Of a stretch of DNA of 33,891 bases, positions 24,258-32,779 are shown piece after piece; position 1 is the stretch's first letter; every line of letters begins with the position of its first letter. This DNA is from Geobacteraceae bacterium. GTDB lineage: Bacteria > Desulfobacterota > Desulfuromonadia > Geobacterales > Geobacteraceae. The position numbers and the translations under genes are program-made. The notes under the pieces are model-generated. The model saw only the letters and a program-made list of their open reading frames with translations, had not been told where the DNA came from and did not search any database. Location of the stretch: assembly GCA_024281055.1 (NCBI GenBank), contig JAMXLF010000077.1, positions 1 to 33,891 of the forward strand. The letters are read 5' to 3'.

Positions 24258-24317
24258 TTTTAAAACTGCAGATATCTGGTTTGACCTGAAAAATACCAGT
24301 ATAAGGTGGTGATTTTA

Positions 24318-24884
24318 TTGAGAACAGTACTGATTTGCGATGACGAACCAGTCATCAGGATGAGCTTAAAAAATAAGCTGATGGAGCTGGGTTTCGACGA
24401 GGTGATGGAGTGCGGCGACGGCGAGACGGCGGTAAAACTGGCTCTTGATCGGTTGCCTGATATCGCCATCTTGGATATCGCTATGCCCAGGATGGACGGG
24501 ATTACTGCCGCCAGCGCGCTGAAAAAGAAGTTGAAAATCCCGATTATTTTTCTGACTGCGGCCTTCGACCCTGAGACGGTCAGGCGGGCCAGAGAGGCTG
24601 GTATCGCCGCGTTTCTCACCAAGCCTCTCCGTGAACAGGACCTCTGGCCTGCCATCGAGCTGGCATTTGCCCACGCAGATGAAGTGGAGGCTCTCAAGGA
24701 GGAAGTTGAGGATCTGAAGGAGTCGATCGAGAACCGAAAGATTATTGAAAAGGCTAAAGGTGTACTGATGAGAACTCAGGGGCTCTCAGAGCCGGAAGCA
24801 TTCCGCAAGCTGCAGAAACTGGCCATGGATAAACGGAAAAGCATGAGGCAAATTGCCGAGGCAATTCTACTCACCGAATCGTAG
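24318..24884 (+). CDS. ANTAR-domain response regulator (RNA antiterminator)
   Basis: This 188-residue protein has an N-terminal receiver (Asp53 in AILDIAMPRMDG, Lys in FLTKPL), a coiled-coil joint (about 115-130) and a C-terminal ANTAR RNA-binding domain with the typical ENRKIIEKAKGVLMRTQGLS segment. Such proteins bind paired hexaloop hairpins in nascent RNA when phosphorylated and stop terminator formation. In Geobacter sulfurreducens an ANTAR regulator, GnfR, acts on nitrogen-fixation genes; this is a candidate equivalent, but orthology was not tested. TTG at 24318 is preferred since AAGGTGG lies eight bases upstream; GTG at 24306 or 24309 would overlap it. No partner kinase is adjacent. 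Confidence 0.88.
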   Translation: MRTVLICDDEPVIRMSLKNKLMELGFDEVMECGDGETAVKLALDRLPDIAILDIAMPRMDGITAASALKKKLKIPIIFLTAAFDPETVRRAREAGIAAFLTKPLREQDLWPAIELAFAHADEVEALKEEVEDLKESIENRKIIEKAKGVLMRTQGLSEPEAFRKLQKLAMDKRKSMRQIAEAILLTES

Positions 24885-25123: not shown

Positions 25124-25152
25124 TTGTCAACCATGTAAAACTGTGTTATATT
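25124..25152 (+). promoter_or_regulatory. Sigma-70 promoter upstream of the riboswitch
   Basis: TTGTCA (25124-25129), exactly 17 bases, TATATT (25147-25152). Transcription would start near 25159, giving a leader of about 400 bases to the first gene. Between start and aptamer there is a 6-bp hairpin near 25204 and an 8-bp one at 25281-25315. Confidence 0.6.
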
Positions 25153-25315: not shown

Positions 25316-25337
25316 CTGAAAAATAGGTATCAGTAAG

Positions 25338-25422
25338 TCTCTCCGATAAGAGCAAAACCGGGGTAACCCGGTGACGCAGAACCACGGACCCGGTAACGGG
25401 CAGCCGAGTCGCCGAAGAGAGA
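25338..25422 (+). ncRNA. GEMM-I riboswitch aptamer, A20 (cGAMP-type) variant
   Basis: The segment carries the GEMM-I core. GCAAAACC leads into P2, ACCGGG-GTAA-CCCGGT with a GNRA loop (25356-25371); then GTGACGC joins to P3, with CCCG-GTAA-CGGG, then GGCAGCC and a 3-prime strand. P1 can form from TCTCTC (25338-25343) and GAGAGA (25417-25422). The base before the G-C pair that opens P2 (25351) is A, where cyclic-di-GMP members have G20; A20 marks the cGAMP-sensing subclass known from Geobacter. The mapping of position 20 was done by eye against the Vibrio Vc2 aptamer. It controls the exported-protein operon that follows. Confidence 0.85.
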
Positions 25423-25442
25423 GTGCTTATCTCTGCTTTTTT
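25416..25442 (+). terminator. Weak hairpin and T-run overlapping riboswitch P1
   Basis: AGAGA within the P1 3-prime strand can instead pair with TCTCT (25430-25434), followed by GC and six T. Only five base pairs form. Competition with P1 would make this a possible expression platform, but the strong terminator downstream is a better candidate. Confidence 0.4.
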
Positions 25443-25460
25443 AAATAAAAGGGATAATTG

Positions 25461-25497
25461 CGCCCGCCTTCGGTATGAGAAGGCGGGCGTTTTTTTT
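25461..25497 (+). terminator. Strong intrinsic terminator after the riboswitch
   Basis: CGCCCGCCTT (25461-25470) pairs perfectly with AAGGCGGGCG (25480-25489), followed by eight T. It stands 62 bases before the first start codon, so transcription of the operon must pass it. The 5-prime arm has GCCCG, able to pair with CGGGC of aptamer P3, a possible antiterminator. Confidence 0.88.
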
Positions 25498-25558
25498 GCC
25501 TGCCGACAGGCTGGTCAGGATCTTCGTCTGCAAATGTCACTTCATACAGGGGTTGTTG

Positions 25559-26749
25559 ATGAAACAGCTCAGAATAATTTTCGCGACCATGCTGACCCTC
25601 CTGACGCTCATCCTGCCGACGGTACACCCTGCGACCGCCGGGGATAAAGAGACCGTGGAGGGAGAGGGATATGCCACCATCGTCGACGGCCACAAGGATA
25701 CCGCCCGGGAAAAGGCAATCAACAACGCATTGCGCCGGGCCGTCGAAGAAGTCGTAGGCGTGATGGTCGAGTCGCAGACCCTTGTCAGGGATTTTCAGCT
25801 GTTGAACGACAGAATCTACACGCAAAGTTCGGGATACGTCCAGAGGTACGCTGTTATCGCGGAGAGGTGGGACGGTGATTCCTGCTGGGTGAAGCTGCGG
25901 GCGACTGTTTCCCTCGTCAAGTTGGAGCAGGGACTTGATTCCCTTGGCGTGCTGGCGAAACAGATGGGAAAGCCCCGGATTGTCATGTTCATGACGGAGC
26001 AGAATGTCGACCAGTCCGCTCCGTCATGCTGGTGGCGCGGTGACAACGGCGTCACCGGGGTGGCGGAAACCGTTCTGACCAGCAGGCTCCAGGAGAAGGG
26101 GTTTGAGTTCGTTGACCGGCGGGTTGTGCACGCCGCTATCAGAGAGAGCGGGAATTCCGCCGTGGCTGAGGTGAGCCTGAGCAATGAGGCGGCACTCAAG
26201 CTCATGGCCGGAGGAGAGGCGGAAGTGGTTATCATAGGACGGGCGCATGCCCGGCAAGGGGCTGCGCTTGCCGGGACCTCGATCCGTTCGTACCAGGCTA
26301 CGGTGACTGCGCGGGCTGTCAATGCCGACACCGGCGAGCTGCTTGCCTCTACTACCGGTCATGCGGTTGCAGCTCATGTGAATCCTGAAGCCGGAGGTGC
26401 TGAGGCTTTGAAAAAGGCCGCTGATGACGCTTCCGGACAACTGATTCGGCAGGTCACTGCCAGTTGGCAGAAAGTTGTCCATGGAAACCGGGTCGTCAAG
26501 CTTGTGGTGACAGGCTTGGCCTTTTCGGATGTAGCATTATTGAAAACCATGCTGAGAGAACGGATCAACCGTGTCGACGGGATATATGACCGCAGCTTCA
26601 GTGACGGTACGGTCAAACTCGACCTGGACGTCAAGACGGATTCTCGGGAGATTGCAGGGAATCTGGACAATGTCCGCTTTAAGGACGGTATTCTAAAGGT
26701 TACGTCTGTCACGGCAAACGTGATCCGGTTGACAATCACTCGGGGGTAG
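25559..26749 (+). CDS. FlgT-like exported protein
   Basis: This 396-residue protein has a Sec signal peptide (about 1-27, cleavage after ATA). The next segment, GEGYATIVDGHKDTAREKAI to about residue 100, is the FlgT N-terminal/LPP20-like fold, and the rest (about 130-396) has further FlgT- or TolB-like alpha/beta segments such as PRIVMFMTEQNV, VVIIGRAHA and a C-terminal KLVVTGLAF unit. FlgT is an outer-membrane-associated flagellar ring protein in Vibrio, but homologues occur without flagella, and no flagellar gene is near. First gene after the riboswitch; the ATG at 25559 follows AGGGG. A role in an envelope complex with the CsgG-like neighbours is inferred. Confidence 0.78.
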   Translation: MKQLRIIFATMLTLLTLILPTVHPATAGDKETVEGEGYATIVDGHKDTAREKAINNALRRAVEEVVGVMVESQTLVRDFQLLNDRIYTQSSGYVQRYAVIAERWDGDSCWVKLRATVSLVKLEQGLDSLGVLAKQMGKPRIVMFMTEQNVDQSAPSCWWRGDNGVTGVAETVLTSRLQEKGFEFVDRRVVHAAIRESGNSAVAEVSLSNEAALKLMAGGEAEVVIIGRAHARQGAALAGTSIRSYQATVTARAVNADTGELLASTTGHAVAAHVNPEAGGAEALKKAADDASGQLIRQVTASWQKVVHGNRVVKLVVTGLAFSDVALLKTMLRERINRVDGIYDRSFSDGTVKLDLDVKTDSREIAGNLDNVRFKDGILKVTSVTANVIRLTITRG

Positions 26750-26760
26750 TAGGAGGCACG

Positions 26761-29016
26761 ATGCGGGCAAGGTTTTATCCATTCATATTTTTGCTGGTGA
26801 TGCTGGTTTATGGTTGCGCCACCCCCGGCAAGGAGAGTTTCAAGATCGGGCTTGAACTCGAAAACCAGAACAGACTGGAAGAATCTCTCAGCATGTTCGA
26901 TGATGCTGTCGCCAAGGAGCGCAATAACGATGAGTACGCAATTGCCGCCGCCCGGGTACGGCAGCGCCTTATCGCCGCTTTGACGGCAAAGGCGAAGTCC
27001 TTTCTCGATGCCCGGCCTCTTACCTTCGAGCAGTTGCAGCAGGCTCTGACATATGCGGAAAAGGCACTTAAGCTCGACGGTAATAACGCCGATTCGGCAA
27101 AGCTCGTTGAAGAGACGAAGCGGCTCGTGGATGACATGATTGCCCGGGCGGAGGTGTTGAACACGGCGGCTCTCATGGCTGCTGACGCAAAAGAATGGCA
27201 GTACGCCCTTGACCAGCTCCGGGAGGTCAAGGATTTCTATCCCAGCTATCCCGAACTAGCGGAAAAAATCGCAAGGACCGAGAACGATGCAGTTGCCTAT
27301 TGCATGAAAGAGGCAGATAGTGCCAGGCGAAACGACGACCTGGCCTCGACCATTGCCATGCTGACGCAGGCGCTGATGATGCGGCCTTCCGATCAGCAGA
27401 TCACCCAGATGCTGGCTGACGCGAAGGCAGCACACACTCCCGAGAAGTACCTTGCAAAGGCCCAGACGCTTACTCAACAGAACGATTGGAATAACGTTGT
27501 TCCGCAACTAGAGAAGGCAAGGAAGCTGAATCCAGGGCCGGAGGCCCGCAGCCGGATTGACAAACTCTACCACGATGTGTTTGCCGTCTTTATCGAACGC
27601 GCCATTCACGATACCATGGAGGGTGACCTGTACGGTGCTTACGGCAACCTGATGTCGTCAGGCTTTGCGCCAGGCCAGAAATACGACGAGCGGATCGATC
27701 AGTTTGCCGAGAAACTTGCGGCCGCCATGATGGAAAAGGCGGCGGGATATGAGAACAGCGGCAAGTTGGGTAATGCCCTCGTCTGGTATGAAAAGGCACG
27801 GAAAATTACAGGGGAGCAGCGGGACCTCTTCCTGAAGATCGAGTCGCTCAGGGAAAAGGTCAAGCAGAGGGTGGTGAAAAAGATCGCTGTCATGGATTTC
27901 ACGTCGCCAAGTACCAGTCCGGACGCGGGCCGGGTAATGACTGACAACCTCCTCTCGTACCTGACCAAAAATGCCAGCACAGACGTCAAGATCTTCGCGC
28001 GTGACGTGCTCGGTGCCATACTCAAGGAAATCGAGCTGGGACAGGCCGGTCTCTACGACATCGAAAGCGCCAAAAAGGCAGGTAAGCTGAAAGGGACCGA
28101 TGTGCTGATCTTCGGCAGCGTTCTCCAGTACAACGTGGAGAAAAATGCTGACGAAGGGCTGAAGATGGTTAATGCCGTAATCGGCAAAAAATCAACGCTT
28201 AATCCTGCCTACCAGGTCTGGCAGGCCTCTCACCGCAACCCATCCGAGGAGGAGAAGCGCGCGGCACCGCCCGAGGTCATCGATGAAGATGTCAAGGAGA
28301 TCGTCAAATACAAAGTGGCAACCCACAAGAAGACGGCGAATGTGAGTGTTTCCTTCAGGGTGATTGACGTTGAGGAGGGTGAGGTGATCATCACCAAGAC
28401 TCTCAAGAACAAGAAGGAGGCGGTGGATACCTACTCGGAGGGGGTGGAATTCGCCAACATTCCGTTCAAGGAGCTCAAGCTCCCGTCGGACGGCGAGCTG
28501 CTTGATCAGGTCGTGGAGGAAACCATATCCGAGTTGGGCTACGGCGTCCTTTCCCTGTTCCAGAATCTCCAGGTCACCTACGCCAACAGCGCCGAGATGC
28601 TGAAAAAGAAGGGTGATTTTGAGCAGAGCATCGAACGGTGCATCGATGCAGCCTATGTAGAGGAGTTGAAAAACGTCTCAACGCCGATCGCGCAAAACGC
28701 CCGCAAGGAAATCGAGGTCCTGCTGCAGATAATAGCCACGGAACAGAAAAGCTCGGGAAAGACGGGGATTGCCGCGGTCCTTAACGGCGAAGCGGCCAGG
28801 TCCGTTACGCCGGGCGCCGGTAATCAGTTTCGCGGCGAGGGGGTAAAGGAAACTGGCGGGGCGCCATTGCCTGCTCCGGGCATGAAGAGTGCTCCCAAAT
28901 CTTCCAACGGAGAGGCTTTAGCGGCTTCGGCACTTCCGCCGGCCGGTGGGCAGCCAGCTGACAAAGGCGAACAGCAGGCAAATCCGCATCTTAAAACGGC
29001 AGGGAAGGCCAATTGA
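26761..29016 (+). CDS. TPR and CsgG-like lipoprotein
   Basis: This 751-residue protein has a lipoprotein signal (lipobox LVYGC, Cys about 19). Residues about 20-365 are helical TPR-like repeats (EESLSMFDDAVAKE, ALTYAEKALKLDG, TIAMLTQALMMRPSD). From about 371 a CsgG-like domain begins with KKIAVMDFTSPS, continuing RVMTDNLLSYL and KGTDVLIFGSVLQYNV, with a long insert, then FRVIDVEEGEVI. The last 80 residues are low complexity. CsgG is the outer-membrane secretion channel of curli; related domains also occur in non-channel lipoproteins. The start follows GTAGGAGG, eleven bases after the previous stop. Function is not known. Confidence 0.85.
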   Translation: MRARFYPFIFLLVMLVYGCATPGKESFKIGLELENQNRLEESLSMFDDAVAKERNNDEYAIAAARVRQRLIAALTAKAKSFLDARPLTFEQLQQALTYAEKALKLDGNNADSAKLVEETKRLVDDMIARAEVLNTAALMAADAKEWQYALDQLREVKDFYPSYPELAEKIARTENDAVAYCMKEADSARRNDDLASTIAMLTQALMMRPSDQQITQMLADAKAAHTPEKYLAKAQTLTQQNDWNNVVPQLEKARKLNPGPEARSRIDKLYHDVFAVFIERAIHDTMEGDLYGAYGNLMSSGFAPGQKYDERIDQFAEKLAAAMMEKAAGYENSGKLGNALVWYEKARKITGEQRDLFLKIESLREKVKQRVVKKIAVMDFTSPSTSPDAGRVMTDNLLSYLTKNASTDVKIFARDVLGAILKEIELGQAGLYDIESAKKAGKLKGTDVLIFGSVLQYNVEKNADEGLKMVNAVIGKKSTLNPAYQVWQASHRNPSEEEKRAAPPEVIDEDVKEIVKYKVATHKKTANVSVSFRVIDVEEGEVIITKTLKNKKEAVDTYSEGVEFANIPFKELKLPSDGELLDQVVEETISELGYGVLSLFQNLQVTYANSAEMLKKKGDFEQSIERCIDAAYVEELKNVSTPIAQNARKEIEVLLQIIATEQKSSGKTGIAAVLNGEAARSVTPGAGNQFRGEGVKETGGAPLPAPGMKSAPKSSNGEALAASALPPAGGQPADKGEQQANPHLKTAGKAN

Positions 29017-29026
29017 GGATAGGCTC

Positions 29027-31234
29027 ATGGTACGAAGGATCACGTTCATCGCGCTGTTGATTTGTCTCGGATGGCGTGTTGTTGGGGCCGTTGCCACTGA
29101 GATGGAGCTTAAACCGAAGCTTGCCTGCCTTCCTTTCGTTTCACTGAATGTTGACGCCATGGCTGTTGCCGAGAATCTCTCGTCTGTGCTGGCGAACAGT
29201 ATCGATCGTACGGGAAATTTCGAGACCGTTGAGCGTCGCAAAATAGAGGGGATGATCGAGCTCGCCGGACTGAAGATCAACAACCTGACGACGGACGACC
29301 TCTATCGGGTCGGGCGTGAGGCTGGTCTCGATTTTCTCGTTTCCGGCACGGTGAAGCGGGCCGGGAGCGGCATGACGGTCGAAGTCTTGTTGCTGAGCAT
29401 GCGGGCCGGCAAGATTTACTATGCCGACACATTCCAGGCAAACGATTATGAAATCGTTAGTCGAATGCAGCAGGTTACAGCTGAGATCATCGCCAAGACG
29501 AAGGAATGTATCCTGGAAGGGCGGGCTGCCGCCCAGGACAAGAAACCACTGGCGGTCCCCTTCGATGTGGAAGTAAGTGGCACGTCGAGTAGCCTGCGCC
29601 TCAAATGGAAACACGCAGACTGTTCGCCGGCGGTCGTTTTCAAGGTGTTCCGTGCGGCCAGAGAGGTGGGGCCTTTCGTTAATATCGCCACCAGCACCGA
29701 GCCTGCTTACACGGATGGTAACCTGAGGGTGAACGAGACGTTTTACTACCGGGTCAAGGCTGTCAACTCCCGTGGAGGGGAGAGTGAGTTTTCACAGACG
29801 GTAATGGGGAAGACTGCGCTTGCCCCTCCGCCGCCTATTCTTCTGAGCGTCGATGCTGAAGTAAAGGGGGCGGTGCTTTCCTGGCGGCCGCGTCCAGCCG
29901 ACGATAGTGACGTCAGGACGGTTGTCGCGGGTTACAGGGTTTACCGTAAGGGTATAGGAGACAAGGAGTACGTCGAACGGGCGCGCTGTCCGCGAGAGGC
30001 GATTACCTACCGTGATTCCGGTCTTGAGGAAAAGAAACATTATACCTATGCCGTTGTCTCATTCAATGGCGACGGCACCGAAAGTGAGTTTTCTACCTCG
30101 CTCGACGTCGTAGCAGTTCCCCCTATTGACGGGGTGCGCGTGGAAGCGGTCAGGAAGAGGCGGGTCGGCTTGCGATGGGCGCCGTCTTTGTGCGAGAGGG
30201 TTGAAGGATACGCCATCTATCGTTCGGATCGGCAAGACGGGGGATACGACAGGGTTGGTACCGTCAGCGGGAGAGAGATGACAGCGTATGGGGACCAAGC
30301 TCCGGAAAGCTGCAAGACCTACTGGTATCGGATCGCGGCATACAACCGAGAGGGAGTGGAAACCACGCCCGCCCCACCGGTTGCCGTGACCACGGAGGGA
30401 AAGCTGCCGGTCCCGGCTGGTATTATGGCCATCAACGGCCAGACGAGAAAAGTAACTATCTACTGGCAACCTGTCGGCACCCCGGCCGATGGCATCAAGG
30501 GGTATCAGGTTTATCGGGCTGAGAACGACAAAGGCCCTTTCAGGCTGTTGGGCGATGTGACGGCGAATATCACCTCCTTCACCGACGAGAGTGCGCTGGG
30601 TAACGGCACGACCTATTTCTACAAGGTAGGTTCCTTCGATGACGGCGGCGATCTGAGCCCCCTTTCAGAGCCGGTGGCGGCTATCACCAAAGGAGTGCCC
30701 CGGGCCCCTGACGGTCTCAGGGCGGTATCCGGAGAGGTAAGACAGGTTACGCTCAGTTGGGGCGGCAATTCCGAGCCCGACATCGAGAAGTACGAGATCT
30801 ATCGCGGCCCTGCTGACGAAACGACGGTATCCCTGATCGACAGCGTCACCGTGACTTCTTACGTAGACAGGGGATTGGAGGACGGCGTCGGCTATAACTA
30901 CGCCGTCAAGGCGGTTAACAAAGAGCGGATGTCCAGTCCCGTTTCGACGGCCGTGTCTGCGCGAACCAGGCCGCTGCCGAAGAAACCGACCAATCTTCGA
31001 ATCGCGTTGCACGACGGTATCCGGATGATCACCTGGGAGCCGGCGAGTGATCAGAACATCTTGCGCTACAACGTCTACAAGAAGGGATTTATGGGGCTGT
31101 CGGAGAAGGTTGCCACGGTCGAGACGAATTCCTGTCGCATCGACAGCCTGATGGAGGATGCTGAACTGCTCATAAAAGCCCAGGACGATACCGGGCGCGA
31201 AAGCGAGGGGGCGGCAATCCTGCTGTCCCGGTAG
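29027..31234 (+). CDS. CsgG-like protein with six FN3-like repeats
   Basis: This 735-residue exported protein has an N-terminal signal (about 1-22). A CsgG/TolB-like domain (about 30-165) opens LACLPFVSLNVDAMAV and has VERRKIEGMIEL and DFLVSGTVKRAG. Six fibronectin-III-like repeats follow, each near 90 residues, with the tell-tale W (LRLKWKHAD, LSWRPR, LRWAPS, IYWQPV, LSWGGN, ITWEPA) and Y-x-V/Y-x-I strands (FYYRVKAVN, YTYAVVSFN, YWYRIAAYN). The CsgG-FN3 pairing is unusual and suggests a periplasmic or surface scaffold. The ATG at 29027, after GAGGATAGG, lies ten bases past the upstream stop; a longer reading from 28946 would overlap that gene. Confidence 0.82.
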   Translation: MVRRITFIALLICLGWRVVGAVATEMELKPKLACLPFVSLNVDAMAVAENLSSVLANSIDRTGNFETVERRKIEGMIELAGLKINNLTTDDLYRVGREAGLDFLVSGTVKRAGSGMTVEVLLLSMRAGKIYYADTFQANDYEIVSRMQQVTAEIIAKTKECILEGRAAAQDKKPLAVPFDVEVSGTSSSLRLKWKHADCSPAVVFKVFRAAREVGPFVNIATSTEPAYTDGNLRVNETFYYRVKAVNSRGGESEFSQTVMGKTALAPPPPILLSVDAEVKGAVLSWRPRPADDSDVRTVVAGYRVYRKGIGDKEYVERARCPREAITYRDSGLEEKKHYTYAVVSFNGDGTESEFSTSLDVVAVPPIDGVRVEAVRKRRVGLRWAPSLCERVEGYAIYRSDRQDGGYDRVGTVSGREMTAYGDQAPESCKTYWYRIAAYNREGVETTPAPPVAVTTEGKLPVPAGIMAINGQTRKVTIYWQPVGTPADGIKGYQVYRAENDKGPFRLLGDVTANITSFTDESALGNGTTYFYKVGSFDDGGDLSPLSEPVAAITKGVPRAPDGLRAVSGEVRQVTLSWGGNSEPDIEKYEIYRGPADETTVSLIDSVTVTSYVDRGLEDGVGYNYAVKAVNKERMSSPVSTAVSARTRPLPKKPTNLRIALHDGIRMITWEPASDQNILRYNVYKKGFMGLSEKVATVETNSCRIDSLMEDAELLIKAQDDTGRESEGAAILLSR

Positions 31235-31250
31235 TGGAAAGGAAGTCGCC

Positions 31251-31547
31251 ATGAAAGCAAGAATTCTGTTTCTGTTTGGCATGCTGTTTGTTGTTTCCAC
31301 AACTGCCAGTGGGGAAGGGGCGCCAGGAACCAGGGAACATCCGGTTTCCGACAACGGCAGGTATCAGCTCTTTCAAGGAACCTACACCGCCTTCGACCTG
31401 AAGCGGCAGGAAACGTATTCCCAGCAGGCCGTATTCCTCATCGACACCAGGACCGGTCAGGTGAAACGCTATGTGAACAAGATCGATACCGAGGGTAAGT
31501 ATATCGAAATGTGGGTATCCACTGATCTCCCTGTAGAGAAGAAATGA
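31251..31547 (+). CDS. Small secreted protein of the riboswitch operon
   Basis: This 98-residue protein has a signal peptide (about 1-22) and a mature part with YQLFQGTYTAFDLKR and FLIDTRTGQVKRYV, resembling a small beta-sheet domain. It begins 16 bases after the FN3 protein with AAAGGAAG upstream, so it is probably the last gene of the four-gene operon. No family was recognised with confidence. Confidence 0.75.
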   Translation: MKARILFLFGMLFVVSTTASGEGAPGTREHPVSDNGRYQLFQGTYTAFDLKRQETYSQQAVFLIDTRTGQVKRYVNKIDTEGKYIEMWVSTDLPVEKK

Positions 31548-31619: not shown

Positions 31620-31653
31620 CTGCCTATTTATTGTGTGCACAATAAATAGGCAG
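31620..31653. promoter_or_regulatory. Perfect 34-bp palindrome, candidate enhancer site
   Basis: CTGCCTATTTATTGTG (31620-31635), two bases, then its exact reverse complement (31638-31653). It lies about 95-130 bases upstream of the predicted sigma-54 start for nifH, the usual place for an activator site, and has no T-run after it. It might instead be a hairpin ending the upstream operon. It lacks the NifA pattern TGT-N10-ACA. Bases 31548-31619 and 31654-31723 show nothing else. Confidence 0.55.

Positions 31654-31678: not shown

Positions 31679-32779
<1,101 letters not shown>

Follow-up and report, generated by a model that had tools for sequence, protein, structure and literature searches.

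The 33,891-nucleotide contig of a Geobacteraceae bacterium analysed here (JAMXLF010000077.1, referred to as the window in the following; contig C77 of a genome of 4.44 Mb in 103 contigs) carries a GEMM-I riboswitch aptamer upstream of four genes for exported envelope proteins. Our central proposal, which we hold at about even, is that a GEMM-I riboswitch of the cyclic GMP-AMP (cGAMP) type would control this operon as a transcriptional OFF-switch. Judged by the pocket bases, the ligand is probably 3′,3′-cGAMP and, judged by modelled folds, the polarity is likely to be OFF; we infer that the ligand is bound in vivo.

The covariance model RF01051 (GEMM-I, cyclic di-GMP-I) matches positions 25341–25416 of the plus strand over model positions 1–87, scoring 53.9 bits against a gathering cutoff of 35 (E 5.1e-8). 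It is the sole Rfam match above the gathering score in the window, and the covariance model and folds place the paired regions P1, P2 and P3 around the junction. The GEMM-I aptamer at 25341–25416 is genuine. Its relevant positions are the following:

25341–25416, plus strand: GEMM-I aptamer of the A20/G48 subtype (Rfam match, alignment)
25351, plus strand: A at the ligand-discriminating position, G20 in Vc2 (model position 11)
25379, plus strand: G at the A48 position, whose probable P3 partner is C in the A20/G48 subtype (alignments)
25412, plus strand: C where the Geobacter aptamer has C75, which we equate with C92 (alignment)
25338–25343, plus strand: 5′ strand of P1, UCUCUC (folds)

An earlier note on this DNA, made from the letters alone, had proposed a GEMM-I aptamer with A at the G20 position. 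The covariance match bears this out: 25351, at model position 11, which we equate with Vc2 G20, is A. With C75 of the Geobacter aptamer likewise equated with C92, the window aptamer has both A at position 20 and C at position 92, the cGAMP combination. What the earlier note overlooked is that the aptamer belongs to an A20/G48 subtype with a predicted OFF-type platform. C75 of the Geobacter aptamer touches the ligand (PMC6274999, PMC7288161).

The genome contains 41 GEMM-I matches, 40 of them above the gathering score; the discriminating base is A in 29 of them, G in 10 and C in two. The A-type aptamers fall into two groups: 24 ordinary A20 aptamers with the pattern GAUAAUACUAAACC...GGAAAG or near it (24 pattern matches in the genome; 'type i', which we take to be the sequence of Gs1761), and five copies (the window's, C87, C90, C19:46748 and C54) with the pattern CCGAYAAGAGCAAAMCC...GACGCAGA (type ii). 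In an alignment of 30 of the 41 aptamers, which omits the odd C57, C34 and C26:38714 as well as eight ordinary A20 copies, the A48 position is G in all five type ii copies and A in the other 25. Its presumed partner at the foot of P3, the base 5′ of GCC, is C in all five and T (19) or C (6) in the others. Seventy-two public stretches were retrieved with a pattern that itself requires A20 and G48; the covariance model confirmed GEMM-I in 68 of these, at 39.7 bits or more, and found none in L156, L160, L194 and L214. In this public set, 72 of 74 subtype rows (the false row L156 counted) have C as the partner base, and all five G20/A48 neighbours have T. Within the bacterium's own family, the ordinary A20 pattern occurs in all 48 genomes and type ii in six; type ii reaches well beyond Geobacter to Desulfuromonas, Nitrospirota, Myxococcota and perhaps Gemmatimonadota. 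By these sequence comparisons, A20/G48 aptamers are a distinct subtype; their expression platform differs as well (see below).

The platform of the window consists of the following elements:

25411–25426, plus strand: A strand, comprising the aptamer 3′ end and the P1 3′ strand (antiterminator pairing with the T strand)
25460–25474, plus strand: T strand, the terminator 5′ arm and part of its loop, and the 3′ strand of the antiterminator (folds)
25460–25490, plus strand: intrinsic terminator, a 12-bp stem followed by a T run (terminator search, folds)
25418–25434, plus strand: weak alternative hairpin with GC and six U behind it, a possible minor terminator (fold)

The terminator starts 43 nt past the aptamer and is separate from it, and the A and T strands can form a 13-bp antiterminator with a duplex energy of −15.6 kcal/mol. 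At transcript ends 25474–25482, the antiterminator fold (−49.7 to −50.9 kcal/mol) leads aptamer plus P1 (−45.4 to −45.8 kcal/mol) by 4.3–5.1 kcal/mol; from transcript end 25486 on, the aptamer side is the more stable, and at 25491 aptamer plus terminator reaches −66.9 against −56.3 kcal/mol. From these energies by transcript length, it follows that the antiterminator should form first without ligand and must be kinetically trapped. In the proposed mechanism, the fresh terminator 5′ arm (25460–25474) would, without ligand, capture the aptamer 3′ end and the P1 3′ strand (25411–25426), and the resulting 13-bp antiterminator would let the polymerase read through into the operon. Ligand would hold aptamer and P1 together and leave the 5′ arm free, which could then pair with the 3′ arm (25479–25490) and stop transcription. 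The computed antiterminator probability in the window is 0.9997; when the T region was shuffled 500 times, 1.2% of the trials reached this value.

The same RNA and the same ligand could also make an ON-switch, in which P1 would block the hairpin at 25418–25434 and free GUGCUUAUCUCU to pair with AGGGAUAAUUGCGC, thereby undoing the base of the main terminator. This pairing does occur alongside P1 in the best fold of 25330–25470, and in G. sulfurreducens the RNA of all GEMM-Ib-led genes dropped upon deletion of the synthase, which means that the known cGAMP switches activate (PMC6456294). However, once P1 has formed, the complete terminator is much more stable than any other fold (the −66.9 kcal/mol at 25491), and the small hairpin trails the best fold, one with P1, by 3.6 kcal/mol, an energy on which we rejected it as the main terminator. 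Moreover, the feature shared across the class is the antiterminator pairing as in the Cd1 riboswitch of Clostridioides difficile (33 of 51 leaders, see below), the small hairpin having been examined in the window leader only. An ON-switch of this kind therefore seems to us distinctly improbable.

The case for an OFF-switch draws on the remaining type ii leaders as well. In the genome's ordinary A20 leaders, the terminator 5′ arm overlaps the aptamer 3′ strand in 22 of 24 (of the other two, one was assigned the terminator of the next tandem aptamer by the script and one had no terminator found), a layout in which bound ligand would keep the terminator from forming and so give ON logic. All five type ii leaders have a separate terminator, 17–56 nt past the aptamer. 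The public type ii leaders contribute 48 further separate terminators, searched for within 300 nt. The motif CUUCGG, which is complementary to the CCGAAG at the aptamer end, lies in the arm or loop of 16 of 53 separate type ii terminators and in none of 54 other terminators from the same loci, a control held to stricter criteria (−12 versus −8 kcal/mol and a longer T run). The antiterminator probability exceeds 0.5 in 33 of 51 type ii leaders whose linker is 12 nt or longer (upstream flank 5 nt for the five own leaders, 14 nt for the others), versus 9.6 expected with shuffled T strands (standard deviation 2.6, maximum 14, 20 rounds). The A strand also pairs better with its own T strand than with those of other leaders (mean −12.7 versus −11.7 kcal/mol, p 4.5e-4), and it does so when the linker portion alone is considered (p 0.015).

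Several observations weigh against this reading. The ten G20 leaders of the genome have four separate terminators, four overlapping ones and two with none, so that the separate layout is not private to type ii. Among the public type ii leaders, ten have an overlapping terminator, and in 16 the search over 300 nt turned up no terminator. Eighteen of the 51 tested leaders stay at or below an antiterminator probability of 0.5, and one of the five own type ii copies, C87, lacks the pairing that the other four have. The p values above are optimistic, since related leaders are not independent, and 26% of the T-region shuffles of the window likewise pass 0.5. The weak hairpin at 25418–25434 with its six U can be read as an ON element, and the published A20 riboswitches are reported or predicted to be ON (PMC6456294, PMC9481103).

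A few aptamers depart from the two main layouts and are recorded here as observations in their own right. L103 (C24:25710-25786) has an ordinary cGAMP-type backbone, yet G at the discriminating position. At L095 (C26:76341-76910), three successive GEMM-I aptamers (A20, A20, G20) precede one exported protein, possibly forming a two-messenger gate; a similar gene on contig C70 has a single G20 aptamer. Four public loci (L186, L203, L224 and L207) carry a tandem of G20/A48 followed by A20/G48 upstream of exported proteins that look FN3-like (fibronectin type III) by eye; their second aptamer has an overlapping, ON-type terminator, and its end lacks CCGAAG. For the type ii aptamers of metagenome-assembled genomes from Gemmatimonadota or Longimicrobial lineages (L159, L182, L187, L195, L206 and L217), no terminator was found within 300 nt in five of six.

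The genome encodes predicted cGAMP synthases: four of its 26 GGDEF matches have serine at the Hypr (cGAMP-synthase) residue. These are L139 with a GGDEF motif, L145 with GGDEY, and L153 and L154 with GGDDF. The alignments of L153 and L154 are weak (E 6e-7 and 2e-5), but the same combination of serine and GGDDF occurs in GSU1937 of G. sulfurreducens, a protein reported to be active (PMC8835794). This survey, which outside the own family covered genomes with type ii only and mostly metagenome-assembled records, showed a serine GGDEF in 21 of 29 type ii genomes: in Nitrospirota (3/3), Myxococcales (1/1), Eisenbacteria (1/2), Geobacter (2/2) and in 14 of 15 genomes of Desulfuromonadales, Desulfuromonas, Deltaproteobacteria or Thermodesulfobacteriota. 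It was not seen, with part of the GGDEF genes read, in eight: G451, where the one match read of seven has glycine, G464, and six Gemmatimonadota or Longimicrobial genomes. In the second batch of GGDEF matches, 30 of 47 were read, one of them unresolved. For the Geobacteraceae, this association says little, because ordinary A20 aptamers are present there too.

The Gemmatimonadota genomes with no serine among the GGDEF genes read, in which the subtype is nevertheless present, count against cGAMP and would suit an aptamer that mainly senses cyclic di-GMP, or both dinucleotides equally, which would place the operon in the cyclic di-GMP regulon. The same direction is indicated by an aptamer from Desulfobacca that, with the cGAMP-type base, gained affinity for cGAMP and lost little for cyclic di-GMP (PMC9481103), and by the OmcST switch, reported to sense both dinucleotides (PMC6456294). 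We nevertheless regard this as unlikely: among the aptamers and mutants that PMC7288161 names, A20 together with C92 is the combination for cGAMP, and outside Gemmatimonadota and Eisenbacteria the Hypr serine was seen in 20 of the 21 type ii genomes examined.

With cGAMP as the probable ligand, the question becomes what the switch controls. The four genes are spaced by 10–16 nt:

25559–26749, plus strand: gene 1, exported FlgT_N/CsgG protein of 396 residues (Pfam, translation)
26761–29016, plus strand: gene 2, TPR/CsgG lipoprotein of 751 residues (Pfam, translation)
29027–31234, plus strand: gene 3, exported protein of 735 residues with a TolB_N/CsgG-like domain and FN3 repeats (Pfam, translation)
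31251–31547, plus strand: gene 4, small exported protein of 98 residues (translation)
25124–25152, plus strand: sigma-70-like promoter candidate upstream of the aptamer, TTGTCA-17-TATATT with TG before the −10 element (motif scan)

The earlier note had described four genes with export signals and no electron-transfer protein. By eye, all four products do have a signal peptide, with the lipobox LVYGC in gene 2, and the CxxCH (heme) motif is absent from all four; none is a cytochrome. The Pfam domains of genes 1 to 3 agree with the description in that note. Above cutoff, Pfam finds FlgT_N and CsgG in gene 1, CsgG and TPR in gene 2, and fn3 in gene 3; the TolB_N and CsgG matches of gene 3 lie below cutoff, and the six FN3 repeats counted by eye in its translation compare with four that pass in Pfam. 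Gene 4 has no Pfam match. Two more specific assignments were rejected, as NCBIfam gives gene 1 68.7 bits against a cutoff of 400 for LipL46 (NF033164) and gene 2 27.2 bits against 500 for Myxo TraC (NF040658). Sequence searches against solved structures gave weak matches for gene 1, the best to designed repeat proteins (E 0.0046), and no match for gene 2, and among the papers searched none joined three of FlgT, CsgG, fibronectin type III and Geobacter. From the domains, our guess is that the operon encodes outer-membrane lipoproteins together with a surface FN3 protein. The operon is flanked by an ANTAR response regulator gene (24306–24884) and a nifH-like gene (31691–32779); an inverted repeat at 31620–31653, between operon and nifH, reads CTGCCTATTTATTGTG TG CACAATAAATAGGCAG, with perfect 16-bp arms and a 2-nt centre.

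Aptamer and operon might also be neighbours by chance, the genes being read from a promoter of their own below the terminator. The earlier note had allowed for such a promoter; a scan of 25491–25559 turned up no sigma-70-like site. The leader's own candidate at 25124–25152 is at chance level, one being found where shuffles give 1.0, and this leaves room for a bystander, as does the record in relatives. Within the family, six of 48 genomes have a gene 1 homolog at E 1e-10, and within the phylum 70 of 395 have one at E 1e-20, the own genome counted in both; gene 2 homologs occur in four of 48 family genomes, and no relatives of gene 1 were found among named genomes. From the 74 other genomes matched, we took 35 gene 1 loci, one per genome and each with at least 1,385 bases upstream. 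Genes 1, 2 and 3 lie together in seven of these, with a more distant set in two further loci, and gene 4 homologs accompany them in five of the seven (tblastn). A covariance model built from the 30 own aptamers detected no GEMM-I at the 35 loci (best 16.1 bits, E 0.057, chance level), and the seven loci with genes 1–3 have no Rfam riboswitch above the gathering score, only tRNAs. Conservation of operon and leader together, which the earlier note had suggested as a check, was thus not borne out, but since only seven of the 35 loci hold genes 1–3 together, there were few cases on which to test the operon proper. An intact aptamer, terminator and antiterminator that fit the plan of the subtype argue against a bystander, to which we give very little credence.

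The genomes examined suggest that the operon is the older part and that the riboswitch was added to it in this lineage. In one relative, the operon lies between recX-like and alaS-like genes (L066), and in another an alaS-like gene follows it (L072; names from Pfam). Operon and type ii aptamer are both present in G026, on separate contigs, and in G038 (L063), one of the seven loci with genes 1–3, the gene 2 homolog (C1:173917-175914) contains one internal TAA.

Behind the genome's other four type ii leaders lie a gene for a subtilase, whose InlB-like repeat scores below cutoff; a series of genes for exported proteins, the first without a Pfam match and the second with DUF11; a sigma-70-like gene, after which come a zf-HC2 gene and one in which TPR and M48 score below cutoff; and a gene for a Kelch/Ig protein that the end of its stretch truncates, leaving 1,908 residues or more. 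Among 47 scanned genes at type ii loci (44 public, three own; starts from our own gene finder, several incomplete), the commonest domains are fn3 (8), Pur_ac_phosph_N (6), DUF11 (5) and bacterial Ig families, though two response regulators and two glycosyltransferases are present as well; one public leader, L179, lies upstream of a protein with six CxxCH. The ordinary A20 scan covered 18 early genes, two further scanned genes having turned out to sit behind G20 aptamers. Its targets include PilM, an L,D-transpeptidase, NlpC/P60, two outer-membrane barrels, a PMT protein, Ig and FG-GAP proteins and a histidine kinase; one is a multiheme cytochrome above the Pfam cutoff, a second cytochrome match lies below it, and four of the 18 have any CxxCH.

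Given these mixed surface targets, surface output is normal in this genome and not itself a widening of the regulon. The earlier note had seen novelty in an output free of electron transfer, but cGAMP-dependent non-cytochrome targets in G. sulfurreducens, namely a lipoprotein transpeptidase operon, pilMNOP and hypothetical genes, are already published (PMC6456294). These, together with the single cytochrome among the 18 ordinary A20 genes here, contradict the premise that cGAMP governs electron transfer only.

What may be new is the sign of the control. We tentatively propose, while considering it somewhat less probable than the contrary, that GEMM-I cGAMP switches comprise two subtypes of opposite sign in one cell: A20/A48 with an overlapping terminator as ON-switch, and A20/G48 with a separate terminator and an antiterminator as OFF-switch for large surface or envelope genes. 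Among the matches listed in our literature search, which covered titles and abstract openings, no OFF-type cGAMP riboswitch was described. The operon may build or anchor an outer-membrane or surface assembly that is unwanted at high cGAMP. PMC6456294 ties cGAMP to growth on Fe(III) particles, with which a cGAMP-dependent repression of large surface proteins would be in keeping. If true, cGAMP would both install and remove surface structures, a single messenger exchanging the cell surface, and A20/G48, with CUUCGG in part of the terminators, would mark the repressed half of the regulon.

Compared with known systems, the window resembles the Geobacter GEMM-Ib switches (Gs1761/pgcA, pilM) in its GEMM-I three-way junction, A20, C92 and control by an intrinsic terminator. 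It differs from them in its separate terminator, the G at the A48 position and its predicted OFF logic; an overlapping terminator with ON logic, usual in known GEMM-Ib members and not part of their definition, is what the window lacks. In G. metallireducens pilM, for instance, the terminator re-uses an aptamer strand and ligand prevents its formation, giving an ON-switch (PMC9262584). Closer in layout is Cd1, a cyclic di-GMP-I riboswitch with a separate terminator (T and H) and an antiterminator of A with T, which acts as an OFF-switch (PMC9262584). With it, the window shares the separate terminator and, in silico, the antiterminator between the aptamer 3′ strand and the terminator 5′ arm; Cd1, however, senses cyclic di-GMP, whereas the window aptamer is A20/G48. 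The c-AMP-GMP aptamer of Desulfobacca acetoxidans is likewise a GEMM-I aptamer from outside Geobacter with A at the discriminating position, but unlike the window it is predicted to be ON and stands in tandem with an adenosylcobalamin riboswitch (PMC9481103). Among envelope proteins of the FlgT, CsgG and LipL46 kind, gene 1 shares FlgT_N and CsgG while falling far short of the LipL46 cutoff.

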